From assembly GCA_013375405.1 (NCBI GenBank), contig JABXJU010000082.1:1-17376 (forward strand): a stretch of DNA of 17,376 nt, in the 5' to 3' direction. Numbering within the stretch: position 1 is the stretch's first letter; the number at the start of each line of letters is the position of its first letter. Below the pieces are notes generated by a model. That model did no database searches, was not told where the DNA came from, and saw only the letters and a list, made by a program, of their open reading frames with translations. This DNA is from Candidatus Helarchaeota archaeon (GTDB lineage Archaea > Asgardarchaeota > Lokiarchaeia > Helarchaeales > HEL-GB-A). The translations under genes were made by a program, and so were the position numbers. Shown here in pieces: positions 2,950 to 17,106 of this stretch.

Positions 2950-3062
2950 ATTTCATTATTCCAGCTTTCTTAAATTAAGATTCTTTTTAAAAATCTACTT
3001 TTTAATGATTGTATTATTTCGGAAATTCTCAGTTAAACTTTTAATTCTATTAAAGGAAAAGA

Positions 3063-3075
3063 ATAAATATAAAAA
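3063..3075 (+). promoter_or_regulatory. Candidate TATA box of the longin-like/TPR protein gene
   Basis: TAAATATAAAAAG is close to the archaeal TATA consensus. Transcription would start near 3095, just upstream of the Shine-Dalgarno AGAGGTGA (3101-3108) and TTG 3116. If so, the ATG at 3005 lies upstream of the transcript. Confidence 0.5.
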
Positions 3076-3100
3076 GTCAAAGTCAATCACCTTATACGGT

Positions 3101-3108
3101 AGAGGTGA
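3101..3108 (+). promoter_or_regulatory. Shine-Dalgarno site selecting TTG 3116
   Basis: AGAGGTGA contains GAGGTGA, a seven-base match to the usual 16S 3' end, seven bases before TTG 3116. It decides the start of the following gene. Confidence 0.65.
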
Positions 3109-3115
3109 CACTCGT

Positions 3116-4858
3116 TTGCCATATGGAATCATCGTTGTTCGCTGGGATGACAAATTAGGCGTGGTGGTAGAGGGACTGCATCCAAAAATGCTCAAGATCA
3201 GTGAAGATCACATCATGCGAATTTTCACCACGCACGCTATGGGAGGTGGCGAAGCGGGATTCTTATCAATGAGTATTGAAAACTTAAACGTTGCGAGTTA
3301 TTACACTGGACTCCCCGAAGAGGGAAAAACTCAATATTATGTAGCTTTATTATTGCGGGATGAGGAAAATGCAGATATTTTCGAGGAGCCGCTATTAGAA
3401 GTTTCAAAATTATTAGTTGATCATATAAAGGACAAATTTTTCAACCAATTTTTAGCAAAACAATTTGGAGACGTTGTGAAATTAACTGAAATGACAGAAG
3501 AGCAACGGTATTCAATGATACATCGTGATCAAAGGAGGATCTTAGTTCTTCGAAAGTTAGGGCTGGGTGCTCTTCCAAAAGATGAGTTAAGAAAGTGGTT
3601 GTCTGATCATTTAGGTGAGGATATTTTAGATTTAGACACAATTTTATCTCCATTTTTCAAGACACAGATGATCCATGAGCTTCCAGTTGAAACGATGGAT
3701 GGATCGAAAACAAATTGTATTTTTTTAATACAAGATGTTTTTTCAATGAGGAGTCCAGTCGAAAAATTTTATAAAATTTCCAAGGATGGAGGAGCACCTC
3801 CCGAGATGGGGAGGGTATTTCAAATTTATAAAGAAGAAACAGATAATTTTTTTAAGAATTATCGATTAGGAGATGCGGACTCAAAGCAAATTGCAGATAT
3901 TGTTGCGGATCCGAATAATTATAACTTAGTTACAATTTTACGAAATAATTATATTGAAATTAATCAATTGCCAGATATTTATGAAAAGAGTTTGGACCAG
4001 ATAATGCCGCAAATAAATGACATGATACGTCATAATGTAATACAGGAAATTAAAGATAAAAAAGGTAATAGATGGATCTTTTTAAAATCGGATATTGTCT
4101 TTCCAACATTTTTTCCAGAATATATTGTAGATTCCATACGACGGAGATGGATGGAGAAGGGGATCACACAAAATTTAGCATTAAAACACCTTGAACTACT
4201 GAAATCTGTTTATCGTGGAGAAGAAGAAAAGCTCGAACTTCCGGGGGAGGGAGCAGAAAAGCCTGTCTTTTTAGAACAATTACCACCAAAAGTGCCTAAA
4301 AAAGAAGTACCAGTTGTGGCAGCTGTTAAAGTAATTTCAGATGAAGAAATATTTAACTTTGTAGAACAGGTCAATTACTTGAGAAAGGAAGCAAAGATAG
4401 ATTTGGACAATAAAAATCGAGAAGCAGCATACGATAAAATACAAGAAGCCATTAAAATAACAAATGATTTGATAGCTATTGGAGCTGTTGGGCAAGAAAC
4501 GAGGTTAGAGAAATTGGAGCTCGTTGCGAAAAGTGTAAAAAAGCTTATTGACAAAGAAAAAGTCAAAAAGCCCTCAATACCAACGCCAGCAGCAGCTCCG
4601 AAGATGTCACCCGCACCGAGAGCTCCAACACCAGCAGGTAAGCCCTCGGTAGAAAGGCTGAAACTATTACGAAAGGACCGTGATAATGCTATTGCAAGTG
4701 CCGATAAAGCGCTAACTGCAGGGAACTTCAAAGAAGCAATCAGTTATCTTGAAAAAGCCGCAGAATTATCTGAAAACATGGGAGAGAAGGAGAAAGCCGC
4801 TGAAATTAGGAAAATGGCAAGTGATATTAAAAATAAATTAGAAAAATTAGGAAGATAA
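3116..4858 (+). CDS. Unrecognised multi-domain protein: longin/roadblock-like N-terminus, winged-helix-like centre, TPR-like C-terminus
   Basis: I do not recognise this 580-residue protein as a named family. Residues 1-105 (GIIVVRWDDKLGVVV, then GEAGFLSMSI and YYVALLLRDE) have the strand-strand-helix pattern of profilin-like longin/roadblock domains, which Asgard genomes carry in number. Residues 140-210 and 255-335 look like winged helices (helix-turn-helix followed by a beta hairpin, for example DKKGNRWIFL). A proline linker leads to two helical TPR-like units (about 410-485 and 515-580) separated by a Pro/Ala-rich hinge. There is no signal peptide. An ATG at 3005 would add 37 residues, but that stretch looks non-coding and contains a good TATA box. 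TTG 3116 has AGAGGTGA seven bases upstream and puts the domain right at the N-terminus. Domain calls are by eye; a scaffold or regulatory role is inference. Confidence 0.8.
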   Translation: MPYGIIVVRWDDKLGVVVEGLHPKMLKISEDHIMRIFTTHAMGGGEAGFLSMSIENLNVASYYTGLPEEGKTQYYVALLLRDEENADIFEEPLLEVSKLLVDHIKDKFFNQFLAKQFGDVVKLTEMTEEQRYSMIHRDQRRILVLRKLGLGALPKDELRKWLSDHLGEDILDLDTILSPFFKTQMIHELPVETMDGSKTNCIFLIQDVFSMRSPVEKFYKISKDGGAPPEMGRVFQIYKEETDNFFKNYRLGDADSKQIADIVADPNNYNLVTILRNNYIEINQLPDIYEKSLDQIMPQINDMIRHNVIQEIKDKKGNRWIFLKSDIVFPTFFPEYIVDSIRRRWMEKGITQNLALKHLELLKSVYRGEEEKLELPGEGAEKPVFLEQLPPKVPKKEVPVVAAVKVISDEEIFNFVEQVNYLRKEAKIDLDNKNREAAYDKIQEAIKITNDLIAIGAVGQETRLEKLELVAKSVKKLIDKEKVKKPSIPTPAAAPKMSPAPRAPTPAGKPSVERLKLLRKDRDNAIASADKALTAGNFKEAISYLEKAAELSENMGEKEKAAEIRKMASDIKNKLEKLGR

Positions 4859-4997: not shown

Positions 4998-5513
4998 ATG
5001 CCTATTCAAGATACTCCGGATTCGAAACTGAGCTCTTTTGAAAAAGGAATCAAGAGGCGCCTCAGCAAAGAACGACAGGTAATTGAGTGGCTAATGGGAG
5101 AATATATAGTTGGAGTCAATTCTAAATGGCATAGTGACAATTTTCCAAGCACTCAACTAACAAAAGTTGTTTTAAACATCACTAGACGAAGTAAAAGAGA
5201 TTTTTCGTCGACTCACCGTGTAATTCGGGAAATTTTAAGAGATTGGGAAAATTATGGCCTGTGTGAATATGTGACTACGACGAAATATGCCCATTGTAGA
5301 AAAACTAAAATGATATATCATTTTCCTCCCAGTGGATTGAAAAAAATTAAAGAAATGATAATAGATTGTCATATCGATTTCATTAAGAACTGGGATAAAT
5401 GGGAAAAATATGTTAGGGGGGAAAATGTCATGAAAACCCGCGAAAATACGATGAAGTTAATCCTTTTTGAGTACACGAACCATATTCAGGAAAATATTAT
5501 GAATTATTCTTGA
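4998..5513 (+). CDS. Unrecognised small basic protein, possibly winged-helix
   Basis: A 171-residue protein I cannot assign. It is rich in Lys, Arg and Trp, with no membrane segment or signal peptide. Residues 19-35 form a charged helix (KRRLSKERQVIEWLMGE). Residues 70-115 read like helix-turn-helix plus wing (STHRVIREILRDWENYGLCEY, then a beta-like TKMIYHF, then GLKKIKEMI), which suggests nucleic-acid binding. The C-terminal 40 residues are helical. It is transcribed alone, with its own TATA box and 110 bases before the next gene. The intact frame supports a real gene; a DNA-binding role is inference from pattern only. Confidence 0.65.
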   Translation: MPIQDTPDSKLSSFEKGIKRRLSKERQVIEWLMGEYIVGVNSKWHSDNFPSTQLTKVVLNITRRSKRDFSSTHRVIREILRDWENYGLCEYVTTTKYAHCRKTKMIYHFPPSGLKKIKEMIIDCHIDFIKNWDKWEKYVRGENVMKTRENTMKLILFEYTNHIQENIMNYS

Positions 5514-6431: not shown

Positions 6432-7802
6432 TTATTTTTCTTTAGATTTTGCTAAATACTTTCGATATTTTTCATTGTGGAGAGATTCTCCTTTATAGTC
6501 TCCTAAATTTTTAGATATTTTACTTGCCTGTTTGTATAATTGAGCTGCAGCATTATACTTTCCTTCTGCGACATTGTTCCTTGCACTTTTGAGAACCATT
6601 GCTAATTCACTCTGGAGAAGTTCTCGATATTTTTTAGTGTAAAGATTTTCAGATCGATAATCTTTTAATTTATTAGATAATTTTACTGCCTGTTTATACA
6701 ATTGAACTGCAGCAAGATGCATTCCTTCAGTTATACGAGACCGTGCTTCTTTAAGAACCATTGCACGCTCATCTAGCAGATTTTGTTTTTCAACTTCTAA
6801 TAGAGGTGATTTAGGTTTTGTAAAATGAGCATGGTAGAGATAAAGTCCAATGCCGACTGCTGTGATTAAGATGATTATTATGATAAAGATGTTAAAAAAA
6901 GTGGGTATCTCTGTAATAATAGTCCATTGAATTAGATTAGCCCATAAACGTAAATTATCCACAGCTTCAATCCAGGGAACTCCAACATAGGAAGATTCTC
7001 CAGAATCTGTGACGTTCAGATCACTGAAAATAATTGTTGAACCGCAGAGTATAATCCTAGACGTGCCCTGTTGAGTGGCATATAACCAAGGTGTTTCATA
7101 AATTTTATCGTTAGTCTGGTTTCTTAGATAAGAATGGGAGTACCCTGTTGCAATAATATCTTGATTCTGAGTTACGTTTAATCCTGAAGAAAATATTAAA
7201 ACAGTTTTAATTTTCCGACTTATGGGATGGAAGTCTTGAAAATTTGAGTCTTCAATTTCGGTTATCCATCTTGGTCCTAACGGGATATGAGTGTCATTAG
7301 TCCATAGATCATAGTATGTGAAGGAAACAGGGAGATTTAATTCTTGGGTTATATTATTTAAATATGAGGCCTGACCTGTAATATTTTCATCAGGGATAGC
7401 TACTCCTACATCGTGGTAATTAGAGAGAAGAAACAGATTTCCACCTTCATCGACGTATTTTGTAAGATTTTTTATTTCACCTACAGAAAAATTGCCATTT
7501 GGTCCTGGATTTCCAATGATAATAAAATCGTAACGTAGTAATTTGGTATAATTGTTTAATTCACCTGAGTTCAAAAACACTTCAAAATCAGCGGTTTGGT
7601 TAAGATAGTCTAAAGCAGTTTTGAAGCGCCCATTTGAATAGGTATAATACTGATCATGTCCCTCATCAAAAAGAATTAAATAAGGTCCTGAAGTAGATTG
7701 GGCTTTAACATTTAAAAGCATAAATTGAGAGAAAAATAAGAAAAACAAGGTAATAATCATAAGAATTGATGAGAATTTTTTGTGATGTGTAGTGGGTTTC
7801 AA
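6432..7802 (-). CDS. Secreted/membrane GATase-like (DUF4350/IFT52-like) protein with cytoplasmic TPR-like repeats
   Basis: A 456-residue type I membrane protein. An N-terminal signal sequence (hydrophobic 12-30, likely cut after VKA) leads an outside domain (about 38-290) resembling glutamine-amidotransferase-like folds of the DUF4350/GldG/IFT52 kind: YLILFDEGHD, RYDFIIIGNPG, LTKYVDEGGNLFLLSNYHD. No catalytic Cys-His pair is evident, so it is probably a binding domain. Many NxT/S sites (for example NQT, NIT, NVT) suit a glycosylated surface protein. One membrane span lies at about 301-323, followed by two 54-residue repeats (343-396, 397-450), each a TPR-like helical pair with AxQLYKQAxKxS. 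The start is TTG 7802, supported by GAGGT (7811-7815) eight bases upstream; the next ATG would cut into the signal peptide. Function unknown. Confidence 0.8.
   Translation of the reverse strand: MKPTTHHKKFSSILMIITLFFLFFSQFMLLNVKAQSTSGPYLILFDEGHDQYYTYSNGRFKTALDYLNQTADFEVFLNSGELNNYTKLLRYDFIIIGNPGPNGNFSVGEIKNLTKYVDEGGNLFLLSNYHDVGVAIPDENITGQASYLNNITQELNLPVSFTYYDLWTNDTHIPLGPRWITEIEDSNFQDFHPISRKIKTVLIFSSGLNVTQNQDIIATGYSHSYLRNQTNDKIYETPWLYATQQGTSRIILCGSTIIFSDLNVTDSGESSYVGVPWIEAVDNLRLWANLIQWTIITEIPTFFNIFIIIIILITAVGIGLYLYHAHFTKPKSPLLEVEKQNLLDERAMVLKEARSRITEGMHLAAVQLYKQAVKLSNKLKDYRSENLYTKKYRELLQSELAMVLKSARNNVAEGKYNAAAQLYKQASKISKNLGDYKGESLHNEKYRKYLAKSKEK
6453..6776 (-). repeat. Tandem 162-bp duplication coding for two TPR-like units
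   Basis: Units 6615-6776 and 6453-6614 encode 54 residues each and keep AMVLK, AR, EG, AAxQLYKQA, YRSE/YKGE and KKYRELL/EKYRKYL at matching positions. DNA similarity is still visible (CTGCAGC and TTTCCTTC-type blocks in both), so the duplication is fairly recent or under constraint. Confidence 0.8.
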
Positions 7803-7981: not shown

Positions 7982-7987
7982 AGGTGA
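7982..7987 (+). promoter_or_regulatory. Shine-Dalgarno site of the DNA polymerase D large subunit
   Basis: AGGTGA ends five bases before ATG 7993. The GTG inside it (7984) is in frame and could be mistaken for the start. A possible TATA element (TTTACATAAAAAC, about 7926-7938) lies upstream. Confidence 0.65.
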
Positions 7988-7992
7988 AATCG

Positions 7993-10900
7993 ATGCAGGG
8001 CTGTAGTGAGGAAATGGCACGTTATTTTGCGACTTTAGATGTTAAATTGGGGCATATTTATGAGATTGCCAAAAAGGCAAGAGAAGTTGGCTTAGATCCA
8101 ACTGAATTTCCTGAAATTTATCCAGCAAAAGATCTTGCATCTCGAGTAGAAGCCTTGACAGGACCAACAGGGGTTGCAGGCCGCATAAGAGAATTAAGTA
8201 AGAAAATGGATGGGGAAGAAACTGCGTTTAAAATAGCAGAAGAAATTGTCAATGGTAAATTTGATTTGAGTGAAAAGGATGAAAGTGAAGAAAAGAGTGT
8301 TACTGACAGATTTGATCCAGCAGAAAAGAATAAAATTGCAGAATTAGCGACACGTGCTGCCTTGTCTATTTTAACTGGTGGAATTACTGCAGCACCTATA
8401 GAGGGTATTTCCAGTGTCAAGATTCGAGAGAATTTTGACAGAACAGAATATTTAGCAATATATTTTGCCGGACCAATTCGATCAGCTGGAGGAACAGAAG
8501 CAGCACTTGCTGTATTGGTGGGTGATTGGGTAAGAACTTTATTGAAATTAGATAAATATAAACCAACTCAGAAAGAAGTTGAACGATATATAGAAGAAGT
8601 TCAGGCATATAAGAGGGAGGTTAATTTACAATATCCTTCCAGTCAAGAAGAAATTCGAACGGCAGCTATGAACATTCCGATCGAAATAACAGGGGAGCCT
8701 ACTGAAAGAGTTGAAGTTTCAGGATTCAGAGATCTAACGCGAGTAGAAACAAATCAACTTCGGGGTGGGGCATGTCTTGTTTTAAATGATGGGATTATAG
8801 GAAAAGCTCATAAATTAACTAAGATTATTAAAAAATTAGATATATTAGGTTGGAAATGGATAGAACATCTTCAAATAAAAAAAGATTCAGGAGACGATGA
8901 AGAAAAAGAAAGAATCCCACCAAAGGATAAATTCATTGCAAAAGTAATAACAGGTCGCCCAGTATTTGCCTATCCATCAAGAATTGGGGGTTTTAGGGTA
9001 CGATATGGACGATCAAGAAATACAGGTTTTGCAGCAGTTGGTTTGAATCCAGCAACAATGATTTTACTTGATAATTTTTTGGTACCAGGGACACAATTTA
9101 TTACTGAACGACCAGGAAAAGGATCGATTGTGCTTCCAGTTGATTCCATAGAAGGCCCAATCGTTCGATTAAAAGGGGGACAAGTTCTACAAATCAATTC
9201 AGCGACACAGGCTATTGATCTCAAAGATAAGGTAGAGAGGTTTCATTTCTTGGGGGATTGTCTAATTGCGTTTGGAGAGTTTTTAGAAAATAACCACATT
9301 TTGATTCCTCCAGGATACTGTGAAGAATGGTGGTGTGAGGAATTAAGAAGCGCTCTTGAAAAAAAATACAGCAATTTGAACGAGGCTACGGATGATTTAT
9401 CAATTTCAGCTGAGATTTTAGAAGATTTTATGGATTTTCCATTTTTTAAAGCTCCAAATGAGGCCCAAACTTTAGTATTATCTGAGAAATTACAAATTCC
9501 TATTCATCCTAAATATAACTATTTTTGGAGTAGCGTTTCTGAACAAGAAATTCTTTCGCTTCAACAATGGTTAAAAAAGGGAAAATTAGAGAATGAACCC
9601 CCATCTATTAAATGCATTCATGATGATTTAATGAAAAACCTTCTTGAAAAATTAGGGGTTCCTCATAATTTAATCAGTAACCAAATAATTTTGACGAAAC
9701 ATGCTAAAATCATAAAAACATTATTTGCACTTGAATCAGACTATTTTGAATTTAATCGTCCATCAAAAGAAAGTCTTTGGAAAGGATCAATTTCCTCTTA
9801 TTTAATTCAGGATCGGGCACCCTACTATATTGGAGCTCGGATGGGGCGGCCAGAAAAGGCGAAAGGTCGAGAATTTTTTCACGTTTTATTTCCCGTTGGA
9901 ATTGAGGGAGGGAATAGAAGGAGTGTGATAAAAGCCGCGGAATCCAAAAAAATTAGTGTAGAAATTGTGTATCGTGAGTGTCCAAGCTGTGGAAATAAAA
10001 CATTTCTTAATAAATGTGGTAAATGTAAAGTTAAAACCAATCCAGTCCAGAAATGTTCTCAAATAAATTGTCAAACAAAAACCCAAGATGAATATTGTCC
10101 AAGATGCGGTAATGTTACTAGATTTTACGATCAAAGAGATATTCCTATTAGGAAATTATTGTCTGATAGATTAAGAAGATTAAATGAACCGTTGCCGAAG
10201 GAAATAAAGGGTGTAAGAGGACTCATGAGTAAGAAAAAAATTCCAGAAATCCTCGAAAAAGGAATTCTTCGTGCTAAACACAATTTATTTGCGTATCGAG
10301 ACGGGACTATTCGTTTTGATGCAACCGATGCACCCGTCACTCATTTTACACCTTCCGAAATTGGTGTTCCTGTTGCGCAACTAAGAGATTTAGGATATCT
10401 TAATGATTATGTGGGAAACTCCCTTGAAACCAAAGATCAAATTCTGGAGCTTAAAGTACAAGATATCATAATTCCCATAGTGGGTGTAAAATTTTTAATA
10501 GAAGTTGCCAATTTTATTGATGAACTCTTAATTAAAGTCTATCACCTAGAACCCTTTTATAATATTTCTAAAAAAGAGGAGTTACTCGGGCATTTAATAA
10601 TAGGGTTAGCCCCACATATTTCTGCAGGTGTGGTAGGGAGGATTATTGGATTTACCACTGCAAGACTCTGTTATGCACATCCCTACTGGCATTCTGCAAA
10701 GAGAAGAAATTGCGATGGTGACGAAGATACGATTATTCTAGGACTTGATGCAGTTCTTAATTTTTCAAGAAGTTATTTACCACAGAAGAAGGGAGGGATG
10801 ATGGATGCGCCTCTAGTTTTAACCTCCCAATTAAATCCTAGTGAGATTGATGATGAAGTTTTTAATATGGAAATCGCTAAAAAGTTTTCAATTGAGTTTT

Positions 10901-11460
10901 ATGAAAAATCGTTAAAATATGCACATCCGAAAGAAGTTCAAAGGATTATCGATATTGTAGAACACCGTATAGGATGTGCGACTCAATTTGAAGGTTTATA
11001 TTTTACGCATCCGACAAGTAATATAAATCAAGGTCCTAGAAATTCACGGTATAAAGAATTAAAATCAGTAAAAGAAAAAGTACATGCACAGTTGACATTA
11101 GCTGCAAAAACGGAAGCTGCAGATGCTCAGGATGAAGCCCGTCGCCTTTTACATACTCATTTTATCCCGGATATTATTGGGAATTTACGATCATTCTCAA
11201 CTCAAAAATTTCGTTGTATTAAATGTAATACCAAATATCGCCGCTTACCTCTATCAAATCGATGTCTTCGGTGTGGTGGGAAGATAATCCTCACGGTAAC
11301 AGAAGGCGGAATCATAAAATATTTAGGATTGTCCCTAGAGATTGTTAAAAAATATAACCTCGATATTTACACAGAGCAACGACTTTTACTTGCGCAAGAT
11401 TATGTGGATTCGATCTTTACAAGTGATAGAGGCCGTCAATTAAAATTAGATAAATTTTAA
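7993..11460 (+). CDS. polC: DNA polymerase D large subunit (DP2)
   Basis: This 1155-residue protein is the catalytic large subunit of the archaeal replicative polymerase PolD. It pairs with the exonuclease subunit DP1, which is not in the window. The N-terminus (YFATLDVKLGHIYEIAKKAREVG) and the segment GPIRSAGGTEAALAVLVGDW are characteristic of DP2. The double-psi beta-barrel core has the metal-binding motif NCDGDED at residues 906-912. Cysteine clusters at about 663-705 (CPSCG ... CPRCG) and 1075-1094 (CIKC ... CLRCG) are the zinc sites. The last residues, GRQLKLDKF, resemble a PCNA-interacting box (Q, L at +3, F at +6). DP2 genes are often split by an intein at the NCDGDED site; here the frame is continuous. 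Length is within the family range. I chose ATG 7993 over GTG 7984 because that GTG is part of the AGGTGA ribosome-binding site. Confidence 0.97.
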   Translation: MQGCSEEMARYFATLDVKLGHIYEIAKKAREVGLDPTEFPEIYPAKDLASRVEALTGPTGVAGRIRELSKKMDGEETAFKIAEEIVNGKFDLSEKDESEEKSVTDRFDPAEKNKIAELATRAALSILTGGITAAPIEGISSVKIRENFDRTEYLAIYFAGPIRSAGGTEAALAVLVGDWVRTLLKLDKYKPTQKEVERYIEEVQAYKREVNLQYPSSQEEIRTAAMNIPIEITGEPTERVEVSGFRDLTRVETNQLRGGACLVLNDGIIGKAHKLTKIIKKLDILGWKWIEHLQIKKDSGDDEEKERIPPKDKFIAKVITGRPVFAYPSRIGGFRVRYGRSRNTGFAAVGLNPATMILLDNFLVPGTQFITERPGKGSIVLPVDSIEGPIVRLKGGQVLQINSATQAIDLKDKVERFHFLGDCLIAFGEFLENNHILIPPGYCEEWWCEELRSALEKKYSNLNEATDDLSISAEILEDFMDFPFFKAPNEAQTLVLSEKLQIPIHPKYNYFWSSVSEQEILSLQQWLKKGKLENEPPSIKCIHDDLMKNLLEKLGVPHNLISNQIILTKHAKIIKTLFALESDYFEFNRPSKESLWKGSISSYLIQDRAPYYIGARMGRPEKAKGREFFHVLFPVGIEGGNRRSVIKAAESKKISVEIVYRECPSCGNKTFLNKCGKCKVKTNPVQKCSQINCQTKTQDEYCPRCGNVTRFYDQRDIPIRKLLSDRLRRLNEPLPKEIKGVRGLMSKKKIPEILEKGILRAKHNLFAYRDGTIRFDATDAPVTHFTPSEIGVPVAQLRDLGYLNDYVGNSLETKDQILELKVQDIIIPIVGVKFLIEVANFIDELLIKVYHLEPFYNISKKEELLGHLIIGLAPHISAGVVGRIIGFTTARLCYAHPYWHSAKRRNCDGDEDTIILGLDAVLNFSRSYLPQKKGGMMDAPLVLTSQLNPSEIDDEVFNMEIAKKFSIEFYEKSLKYAHPKEVQRIIDIVEHRIGCATQFEGLYFTHPTSNINQGPRNSRYKELKSVKEKVHAQLTLAAKTEAADAQDEARRLLHTHFIPDIIGNLRSFSTQKFRCIKCNTKYRRLPLSNRCLRCGGKIILTVTEGGIIKYLGLSLEIVKKYNLDIYTEQRLLLAQDYVDSIFTSDRGRQLKLDKF

Positions 11461-12804: not shown

Positions 12805-13018
12805 ATGTCAAAGAAAAAATCAAAACGCTCGCGACGTCGCGGTAGAGAAGGACCGATTTTACTTATATAGGTTAAGTAACGGTAAGCCTTTCGCAGGAGC
12901 GGGTTTAATTCGATTTTTTGAGGAAGAATCTAGTGGAGTTAAAGTTGGACCGGTTGCAACGATTGTCCTTGCATTAATCTTGATTATCGGAGTTGCAGTT
13001 GGGCTTGCGATTTCCTAA
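12805..13018 (+). CDS. secG: Preprotein translocase Sec61-beta subunit, split by a BHB intron: join(12805..12857,12886..13018)
   Basis: The small beta subunit of the SecYEG/Sec61 protein-conducting channel. Exon 1 encodes a basic cytosolic N-terminus (MSKKKSKRSRRRGREGP). Exon 2 encodes the family signature FAGAGLIRFFEEE, a short SSGVKVGP segment, and a single membrane helix (VATIVLALILIIGVAVGLAI). The exons are in different frames: frame 1 stops at TAG 12868, inside the intron. Removing 28 bases (12858-12885) at the sites predicted by the BHB fold joins CCG-AT to G-CCT, creating Met18 and the text GPMPFAGAGL, exactly the motif expected in archaeal Sec61-beta. The spliced product is 61 residues, normal for the family. 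A frameshift pseudogene or sequencing error would not explain the fold together with the restored motif. Confidence 0.9.
12858..12885 (+). other. 28-nt bulge-helix-bulge (archaeal) intron in the Sec61-beta mRNA
   Basis: The fold spans 12847-12891. The outer helix is AAGG (12848-12851) with CCTT (12887-12890) plus a G-U pair (12847/12891). The central 4-bp helix is ACCG (12852-12855) with CGGT (12880-12883). The three-base bulges are ATT (12856-12858) and AAG (12884-12886), one on each strand. The inner helix is TTACTTA (12859-12865) with TAAGTAA (12873-12879), closed by a 7-base loop. This is the arrangement of archaeal tRNA introns, in which the EndA-type endonuclease cuts after the second base of each bulge, giving intron 12858-12885. 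Its length is not a multiple of three, and it holds an in-frame TAG. The cut sites are inferred from the tRNA rule but independently confirmed by the restored reading frame. Confidence 0.9.
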
Positions 13019-13059: not shown

Positions 13060-13689
13060 TTAATCTCCTTCGGTTAATTTCCGGAGTTCTTCAATCTCTT
13101 TTTTCGCCTTTTCTTTGCGAGTAAGCGGCTCTCCCATCCCGCCCTGAGGCGCATCAGGAAGGGGGCCTTCACCCAAAATCATTTCAGCTTCAAAACGTGA
13201 AAGTTCCTGGTCAGCTTCCGTATCGAAGTCGAGGTCATCCGTGGATGACATTTCAGCATATATTTCTCCAACTTGGTCAATTTCAGCCATGGCAGCATCT
13301 GATTCAGCTGCAACTTGTTCGGCTTTTTCAATACTAATATCTTTTTGGATACTTTTCATTTCTACGAGGCCCATTTTGACAGCCTCATCGACTCCTTTGA
13401 TATCCATCGCTTGATCAATTACGATTATCATGTTCTCTAGTCTTGAGGAATAATTTACATAACGTTCAGAGTATTTATTCAATCGGGACCATTTTTTAAG
13501 AGCTTGCTTCGCGGCGCGCTTATTACCAGATCGATAATATTGTTTCGCCTTATAATAATCCATTTGGGCGCGTTTTTTAAAAGCCCGTTCTCTTAATTCT
13601 AATTTATTAATCATTTGTCGGAGTCTGGCAATAGTGCTCTCTTTATCTTTCTTCTTACGCCCAGGTAATATCTTTTTCATGAAAGACAA
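13060..13689 (-). CDS. ESCRT-III family protein, Vps20/32/60 (Snf7)-like
   Basis: A 209-residue ESCRT-III subunit. The N-terminus is short and basic (MKKILPGRKKKDKE), as in Snf7 proteins that touch membrane. Residues 18-95 form the long alpha1-alpha2 hairpin (ARLRQMINKLELRERAFKKR, then YRSGNKRAAKQALKKW). The pattern NKRAAKQALK closely echoes the Snf7/CHMP4 helix 2 (NKRAALQALK). Helices 3-5 and an acidic linker follow. The C-terminus has a proline motif (GPLPDAP, 176-181) recalling MIT-interacting motif 2, and a final charged helix (KKEIEELRKL) that does not fit MIM1 spacing. ESCRT-III filaments constrict and cut membranes from inside, in archaeal division for instance. The TTG start (13689) has AAGTGA four bases upstream; ATG 13680 is the alternative. 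It is 56 bases behind the HerA-like gene with no clear promoter between, so probably cotranscribed. Confidence 0.9.
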   Translation of the reverse strand: MSFMKKILPGRKKKDKESTIARLRQMINKLELRERAFKKRAQMDYYKAKQYYRSGNKRAAKQALKKWSRLNKYSERYVNYSSRLENMIIVIDQAMDIKGVDEAVKMGLVEMKSIQKDISIEKAEQVAAESDAAMAEIDQVGEIYAEMSSTDDLDFDTEADQELSRFEAEMILGEGPLPDAPQGGMGEPLTRKEKAKKEIEELRKLTEGD

Positions 13690-16491: not shown

Positions 16492-17106
16492 TTATCTTTC
16501 CTCTTTAATCCTTCTAATTTCATCTTCTAATTTTGAAATTCGGCTATCAGCTGGAGTGGTTGGTAAAGCAACTCCAGTTTCCACGGCTATTTCTTGATTT
16601 ATTTCGTCCATTGTTCTTTGAACATCCGAATCCTTCACTTCGGTTGAAACAGTAATTTCTTCTAGGCCCCCTTCGGCTATTTCTTGAGTCATTTCGAAAT
16701 GTTCGATTTGAGAGTCAATGTTATCAACTAATTGGGCAACATTTTGGGTTCGTACAGCACTTCTTAAGGCCCCTAACGCATTAGTAATTCCGCCTAATAT
16801 CTTTGCCGTTTCAGCTACAGCCTGAGATTGTTTTAGCTTCATTAATAAATTCATGATGTGCAACCGGTAAGTATCAACCCCAATTGCCCACTTATTATAT
16901 TTGACATAATGTTGAGCATATAACCGAGCAGAATCCGAATTGCCATCCAATTGATATTTTTTCGCCTTAGTTCGATTATTTCTCGCTTCTTTCTCTAGTT
17001 GCTTCCTTTGCCGATCTAATTTACGGGTAAAAACATCTACCCTAAAAATGATATCATTTAAATTGGCTCCCTTCAACCAACTTACAAATTTTCTCCAAGC
17101 GCCCAT
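16492..17106 (-). CDS. ESCRT-III family protein, Vps2/24/46 (CHMP1/2)-like
   Basis: A 204-residue ESCRT-III subunit of the second eukaryote-like class. Residues 20-95 form the helical hairpin (TRKLDRQRKQLEKEARNNR, then GNSDSARLYAQHYVKYNKWA), with the GNxxxARxxAxxxxxxKN pattern of CHMP1/Vps46. The middle helices (100-145) contain VAQLVDNIDSQIEHFE, like the helix-4 region of that class. The C-terminal SKLEDEIRRIK (191-201) fits MIT-interacting motif 1 (LxxRLxxLK) at L193, I197, I200 and K201, but has Glu196 where the consensus has Arg. MIM1 recruits the Vps4 ATPase that disassembles filaments; no Vps4 gene is in the window. It is the first gene of the cluster, with a strong TATA box 27-34 bases upstream. 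Class assignment is by sequence pattern and could be checked by phylogeny. Confidence 0.9.
   Translation of the reverse strand: MGAWRKFVSWLKGANLNDIIFRVDVFTRKLDRQRKQLEKEARNNRTKAKKYQLDGNSDSARLYAQHYVKYNKWAIGVDTYRLHIMNLLMKLKQSQAVAETAKILGGITNALGALRSAVRTQNVAQLVDNIDSQIEHFEMTQEIAEGGLEEITVSTEVKDSDVQRTMDEINQEIAVETGVALPTTPADSRISKLEDEIRRIKEER

Follow-up and report, generated by a model that had tools for sequence, protein, structure and literature searches.

How does an archaeon make Sec61-beta from a gene that appears to be broken? The gene in question lies at 12805-13018 on the + strand of the window, by which we mean the whole 17.4-kb stretch of DNA analysed here. Read straight through, its first exon runs into an in-frame TAG at 12868-12870, and what should follow is in a different frame. 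The cause is a 28-nt insertion at 12858-12885. An earlier note had claimed that this insertion is a bulge-helix-bulge (BHB) intron, removed from the message by splicing, and we are highly confident that it is an mRNA intron cut by EndA, likely sealed by RtcB, and one of a scattered population of such introns in Asgard mRNAs. In the mechanism we propose, EndA (the tRNA-splicing endonuclease) would cut the pre-mRNA after bulge base two in both 3-nt bulges, RtcB would probably join the exons, and translation of the spliced message would give a normal Sec61-beta of 61 aa.

The broken gene and its fold

Exon 1 (12805..12857, +) encodes MSKKKSKRSRRRGREGP plus bases 1-2 of a Met codon. Exon 2 (12886..13018, +) supplies the G of that codon, followed by PFAGAGLIRFFEEE..., the membrane helix and the stop. 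Excision of the predicted intron (12858..12885, +), which holds the frame-breaking TAG, gives a single 61-aa frame with the junction protein MSKKKSKRSRRRGREGPMPFAGAGLIRFFEEESSGVKVGP. The mended protein matches Pfam Sec61_beta with an E of 8.9e-11. Exon 2 by itself scores 4.9e-11, so the Pfam match is no test of the junction. Homologues, by comparison, read across it. The spliced protein is identical to the intron-free P0001 over 40 residues and to P0007 over 46; among the matches listed, 10 of 33 homologues have N-terminal identity running past the junction, for 35 to 46 residues. The named proteins nearest to it come mostly from Candidatus Helarchaeota MAGs, which makes a Helarchaeon or a near relative the likely source of the DNA. 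Set against the gene of Hel_GB_A (L005), the first 57 codons of the exons hold 21 synonymous and 10 non-synonymous codon differences, as would be expected of a gene under constraint. The existing gene call in the window (P0028) has its start in the wrong frame.

The fold described in the earlier note is all there, coordinates, helices and bulges included, as are the break at TAG 12868 and the change of frame. Along the + strand, AAGG (12848..12851) is the 5' strand of the outer helix and pairs with CCTT (12887..12890). ACCG (12852..12855) pairs with CGGT (12880..12883) to make the central 4-bp helix. The 5' bulge, ATT, occupies 12856..12858, with the predicted cut at 12857/12858, and the 3' bulge, AAG, occupies 12884..12886, with the predicted cut at 12885/12886. 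The inner hairpin (12859..12879) consists of TTACTTA (12859-12865), a loop (12866-12872) and TAAGTAA (12873-12879). Cuts after the second base of both bulges remove 12858-12885 and produce the family motif, just as had been claimed, and this is the same border that homology alone sets, without ambiguity (ambiguity 1).

Folded as an isolated 43-nt piece, the element is a BHB with a 4-bp central helix between two 3-nt bulges on opposite strands, an inner helix of 7 bp and an outer helix of 4 bp (MFE -10.2, z -2.1; 8 of 200 shuffles were equally good). Given 101 nt of context, the element keeps its central and inner helices but loses the outer one to competing pairs, and its energy does not stand out (z -0.78; 42 of 200 shuffles equally good). 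We defined a strict BHB as one with Watson-Crick outer and central helices of 4 bp each, an inner helix of 7 without mismatch and an intron of at most 60 nt. The window has one, counting both strands; 200 Markov-shuffled windows gave 18 in all (0.09 each), which by simple arithmetic is a chance of about 2.6e-6 per strand position. That sole strict BHB sits exactly at the point where the Sec61-beta frame needs mending. A loose scan returned about 62 matches per shuffled window and was too weak to use, so candidates were ranked by energy instead. Among 108 candidates, three Sec61-beta introns took ranks 2-4. Rank 1 (L035) was rejected, since we read it as the antisense of what we take to be a polD zinc finger.

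Could the gene simply be a decayed copy, or the insertion a sequencing or assembly error, a neutral or artefactual break with nothing to splice? The frame is broken, after all, and there may be a second copy elsewhere in the host genome. We consider this very unlikely. Apart from the insertion, neither exon is damaged, and both match their kin past the junction; a strict BHB with a residue-exact cut is not a product of errors. More improbable still is that the ribosome hops over the insertion, or shifts frame there in a programmed way, leaving the RNA uncut. There is a hairpin inside the insertion, and ribosome hop elements also contain hairpins. The bypass element of T4 gene 60, however, has matched take-off and landing codons, whereas the borders of the window's insertion hold no repeat that could give such a pair (ambiguity 1), and the fold has the 4-bp and 3-nt geometry specific to EndA. 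A frameshift, for its part, would add intron-coded residues that are absent from every intron-free homologue. We give almost no credence to the idea that EndA cuts the BHB mainly as a switch, lowering Sec61-beta expression by cutting without joining: excerpts of two papers have Haloferax EndA cutting BHB sites in the HVO_1309 5' UTR (PMC7714728) and propose a negative-regulator role for the cbf5 intron (PMC2738675), but the element here lies within the frame and its cuts give back the exact protein; no full product could be made without joining.

Sec61-beta in related genomes

Relatives show what the gene looks like without the insertion. The 76 Sec61-beta loci found on GTDB contigs are all unbroken, as judged by the pattern LIRFF[EQ][ED]E, which is blind to genes broken within the pattern itself. 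We also searched the 83 genomes of the class of Hel_GB_A, which we take to be Lokiarchaeia. There the gene was matched in 78. Over the matched stretch it is unbroken in 76 of these; in the other two it is split. None of the 76 GTDB loci or the 78 matched genomes of the class has an intron at the window's site. A wider search of the phylum matched Sec61-beta in 214 of 227 genomes; our intron counts rest on the 83-genome class search and not on this one. The 13 genomes without a match, together with G015 (E 0.07), were searched again with P0106, giving weak matches in 4 of the 14, none of which we accepted as an exon. A scan of viral contigs turned up no relative.

The two split genes, in G030 and G031, are broken at GAGL^MRFF by 32 nt, a site different from the window's. 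The two genomes are siblings (94% identical over 12 kb), and we therefore count their insertion as one event. A possible BHB can be drawn around it, with outer helix GGCGCA/TGCGCT, central helix GGTC/GATT, bulges TAA and AAA and 9 of 10 inner pairs, lying above the best fold by 2.3 kcal/mol in G030 and 1.3 in G031. Cutting after bulge base two gives GAGLMRFFED, and GAGLMRF occurs in all 120 Sec61-beta homologues among the matches listed (120 of 453). Both insertions, 28 and 32 nt, are thus cut by the same rule: one rule, two insertions, one gene. The exons of the siblings differ at 2 synonymous and 6 non-synonymous codons, so that the pair alone is no demonstration of selection. Each has one Sec61-beta locus in the searches made. 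A shared insertion in genomes with one locus each is hard to square with a decayed copy or an error. Alignment with related genes, which the earlier note had put forward as a check, has in this way produced both intron-free orthologues and intron-bearing ones, the latter at another site.

Several other candidates fell away. G167 looked short only because its match is at a contig end; in G082 and G083 the gene is intact; L148 (G099:C139:150-257) has an in-frame TAA after LIRFF with no insertion, and G099 has other intact copies. Among metagenome and Helarchaeota records, four proteins (P0029-P0032) start with MPFAGAG and one (P0033) with MRFFEEE, adjoining the two Sec61-beta intron sites. From their sequences, these are possibly shortened calls of more intron-bearing Sec61-beta genes.

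The same geometry in other genes

A scan of 400 kb of G031 for frame-bridging BHBs put the gene for ribosomal protein uL11 at the top of 64 candidates. Its 30-nt intron has one in-frame TAA, and splicing yields GPPIGPVVGPTGINIK. A second 400 kb of the same genome gave Sec61-beta again and nothing else strong in the same scan, which would overlook introns whose outer helices are weak, as at uL11 sites B and D (below). Across the class, uL11 was matched in 74 of 83 genomes, with the gene split or stopped in many. We aligned 45 of the 74 loci by spliced alignment, a method blind to RNA structure, with an intron-free uL11 protein from G022 as the reference. Of these, 29 were suspects, being split, interrupted by stops or late in starting, and 16 were intact controls, including the source of the reference protein. 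Of the suspects, 27 (L205, L206, L210-L224, L226-L229 and L230-L235) came out with introns, 36 in total, and the 16 controls with none. The two suspects without an intron were G061, at a contig edge, and G005, rejected as intron-bearing because its TAA is the gene's own stop. The introns are 28-37 nt long, up to three per gene (three in G042; G046 carries one, on a contig of 3.34 Mb), and fall at four sites: A, GPV^VGPTG (2 introns); B, GPTGIN^IKD (15); C, GPPI^GP (7); and D, TGGS^ASGG (12).

Does EndA's geometry lie at these borders too? With the three Sec61-beta introns added, 35 of 39 introns have a full 4-bp central helix at the border that homology sets. The other four, all at uL11 site C, have 3 of 4 pairs each. 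When the borders of the first 31 introns were slid, a full central helix appeared in 5.1% of placements (both ends moved) or 4.0% (3' end only). The genomes are related and the 39 introns not independent, so the safer count is six distinct sites in two genes. Outer helices are weak at sites B and D. At these sites, several changes keep the pairing. The first central pair at site D is T-A in 6 of the 12 genomes and A-T in the other 6, paired in all 12; among the sequences listed, the exon side changes silently (GGT/GGA) and the intron base changes to match. At sites B and D, 6 of 8 inner-helix positions have changed on both strands with pairing preserved in some genomes. Depending on the position, 8 to 15 of the 15 introns at B are paired, and 6 to 12 of the 12 at D. 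These covariation figures are raw genome counts that ignore kinship.

An all-against-all comparison of 192 loci (1.82 Mb) carried the search to other Asgard MAGs. It gave 29 split candidates (rows of split HSPs), of which 8, duplicates included, resolved into 8 introns in 4 genes of four MAGs. Three are in a GlyA gene of a Baldrarchaeota MAG (L008; minus-strand positions 6672-6699, 6763-6788 and 7454-7482; 28, 26 and 29 nt) and three in that of an Odinarchaeota MAG (L006; 4794-4821, 4885-4910 and 5576-5604; again 28, 26 and 29 nt). The Asgard MAG LC30 (L065) has one in GlyA (6490-6530, 41 nt), and Baldrarchaeum L003 one in a PorC/KorC-family gamma subunit gene (6939-6966, 28 nt). Six of the 8 have all four central pairs; the third GlyA intron has 3 of 4 pairs in one case and 2 of 4 in the other. 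The names GlyA (serine hydroxymethyltransferase) and PorC-like come from an NCBIfam scan of the intron-free query proteins. The remaining 21 rows were rejected. Ten were inspected and had 0-3 of 4 central pairs or, in L095, all four bridging a stretch of N; the other 11 repeated these queries or duplicated loci. The main query among the rejected rows is antisense to a gene read as eIF2-alpha.

The same geometry, then, is seen again in uL11, GlyA and a PorC-like gene, which is a further strike against decay or error in the window. Pseudogene, assembly error and bypass leave unexplained that homology-set borders coincide with the EndA position in one gene after another.

Enzymes, precedents and reach

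An mRNA intron needs enzymes. EndA (PF01974) is present in all seven relatives tested, six of which have two paralogues, and RtcB in six of the seven. The one genome in which RtcB gave no match is G031; its sibling G030 has it. From their presence in relatives we infer EndA and RtcB in the window's host; cleavage and ligation of the Sec61-beta transcript are predicted, with RtcB as the presumed ligase. The Helarchaeal EndA of G002 is closest to PDB 3p1z_B (E 3.9e-45), which we take to be the Aeropyrum pernix enzyme, and keeps the histidine of GIDHAPF where 3ajv_B has alanine. A second paralogue, from G003, matches the archaeal EndA 1a79 (E 9.1e-22), with Thr in place of the His of 1a79. By sequence, the pair would fit an enzyme of two subunits, a kind that an excerpt of PMC2738675 associates with cbf5 splicing. 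With introns allowed, ARAGORN found three tRNAs (Glu, Pro and Ser) in 800 kb of G031 (L165-L204), all intron-bearing (44, 28 and 13 nt), and no intron-less tRNA; with default settings it found no tRNA in the 40 loci. Rfam gave no match in seven loci.

Taken together, the intron-free orthologues, the second BHB-type insertion at another Sec61-beta site in the siblings, the cut geometry at borders set by homology only, the pairing-keeping changes in uL11 and the EndA and RtcB of relatives make EndA-type splicing of the window's Sec61-beta a strongly supported reading of the DNA. The earlier note's interpretation is thereby supported. The window's intron is most likely one of the scattered small EndA-type mRNA introns of Asgard archaea, with Sec61-beta, uL11, GlyA and a PorC-like gene as hosts, and some Asgard genes most likely have two or three. 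We also think it probable that Asgard archaea carry EndA/RtcB-spliced introns in conserved mRNAs at many sites, up to three per gene and patchy among kin, giving multi-intron genes outside eukaryotes. Gene callers shorten intron-bearing genes, which is why such introns would have been overlooked.

Is any of this new? By analogy the mechanism would be cbf5-type archaeal pre-mRNA splicing, and we dropped the label 'categorically new' for that reason. Gene, phylum and scale are new; the class of mechanism was already known. According to excerpts of PMC2738675, cbf5 introns occur in two crenarchaeal orders, Desulfurococcales and Sulfolobales, measure 16-44 bp and follow a stated cut rule; like ours, they are small BHBs in a protein gene, with a predicted EndA cut between bulge bases 2 and 3, and have been gained and lost. 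The differences, on the same source, are that the host gene here is Sec61-beta and not cbf5, in another phylum, that cbf5 BHBs are mostly unconventional where the window's is canonical, and that cbf5 has one site in one gene where the Asgard set has several genes and sites. At 28 nt the window's intron is within the cbf5 range, and the same excerpts give 11-175 nt for archaeal tRNA introns and mention putative 12-bp introns in an archaeal virus. The earlier note's remark that the intron is among the smallest imaginable does not hold against these figures, nor against the 13-nt tRNA intron of G031.

Introns of archaeal tRNA and rRNA share the motif and, by inference, the enzymes; unlike them, the window's intron sits in an mRNA, where the splice must restore a reading frame. 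Eukaryotes have an mRNA of a related kind in HAC1/XBP1, cut by IRE1 in a stress response and not by EndA at a BHB. In the part of PMC4090602 drawn on here, its exons are joined by a ligase of the tRNA type and no spliceosome is involved, as is proposed for our intron. The HVO_1309 mRNA of Haloferax volcanii resembles our case in having a BHB cut by EndA, as is predicted here, and differs in that the BHB is in the 5' UTR and not in coding sequence (PMC7714728, excerpt). That excerpt names cbf5 as the only additional BHB intron reported as of 2020, to which it adds the 5' UTR cuts. On this and PMC2738675, so far as the excerpts go, the earlier note was right to call mRNA BHB introns rare, with cbf5 as the known case; our data suggest that they are less rare in Asgard archaea. 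Among open PMC titles and abstracts, we found no BHB introns reported in Sec61-beta, uL11 or other Asgard mRNAs, though a subscription or preprint report may exist.

Asgard archaea are the closest known relatives of eukaryotes, and tRNA-style mRNA splicing may be widespread among them. If so, the splicing of coding sequence would be no curiosity of cbf5 but something that recurs in the lineage nearest to eukaryotes. It also becomes possible to test how introns in mRNA arise, are tolerated and disappear where there is no spliceosome. On a practical note, Asgard gene calls at such sites, ribosomal and translocon genes included, can be shortened or wrong.

In the rest of the window, two ORFs on the + strand, 3005-4858 (617 aa) and 4998-5513 (171 aa), have no Pfam match at E 0.001, and a large ORF at 7984-11460 is presumably the PolD large subunit. 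Pfam matches elsewhere are to ribosomal proteins L1 and L10, an acidic P1-type protein, a CBS protein and MazG. Two Snf7-family (ESCRT-III-like) genes, at 13060-13689 (-) and 16492-17106 (-), flank a gene for a HerA-like ATPase.
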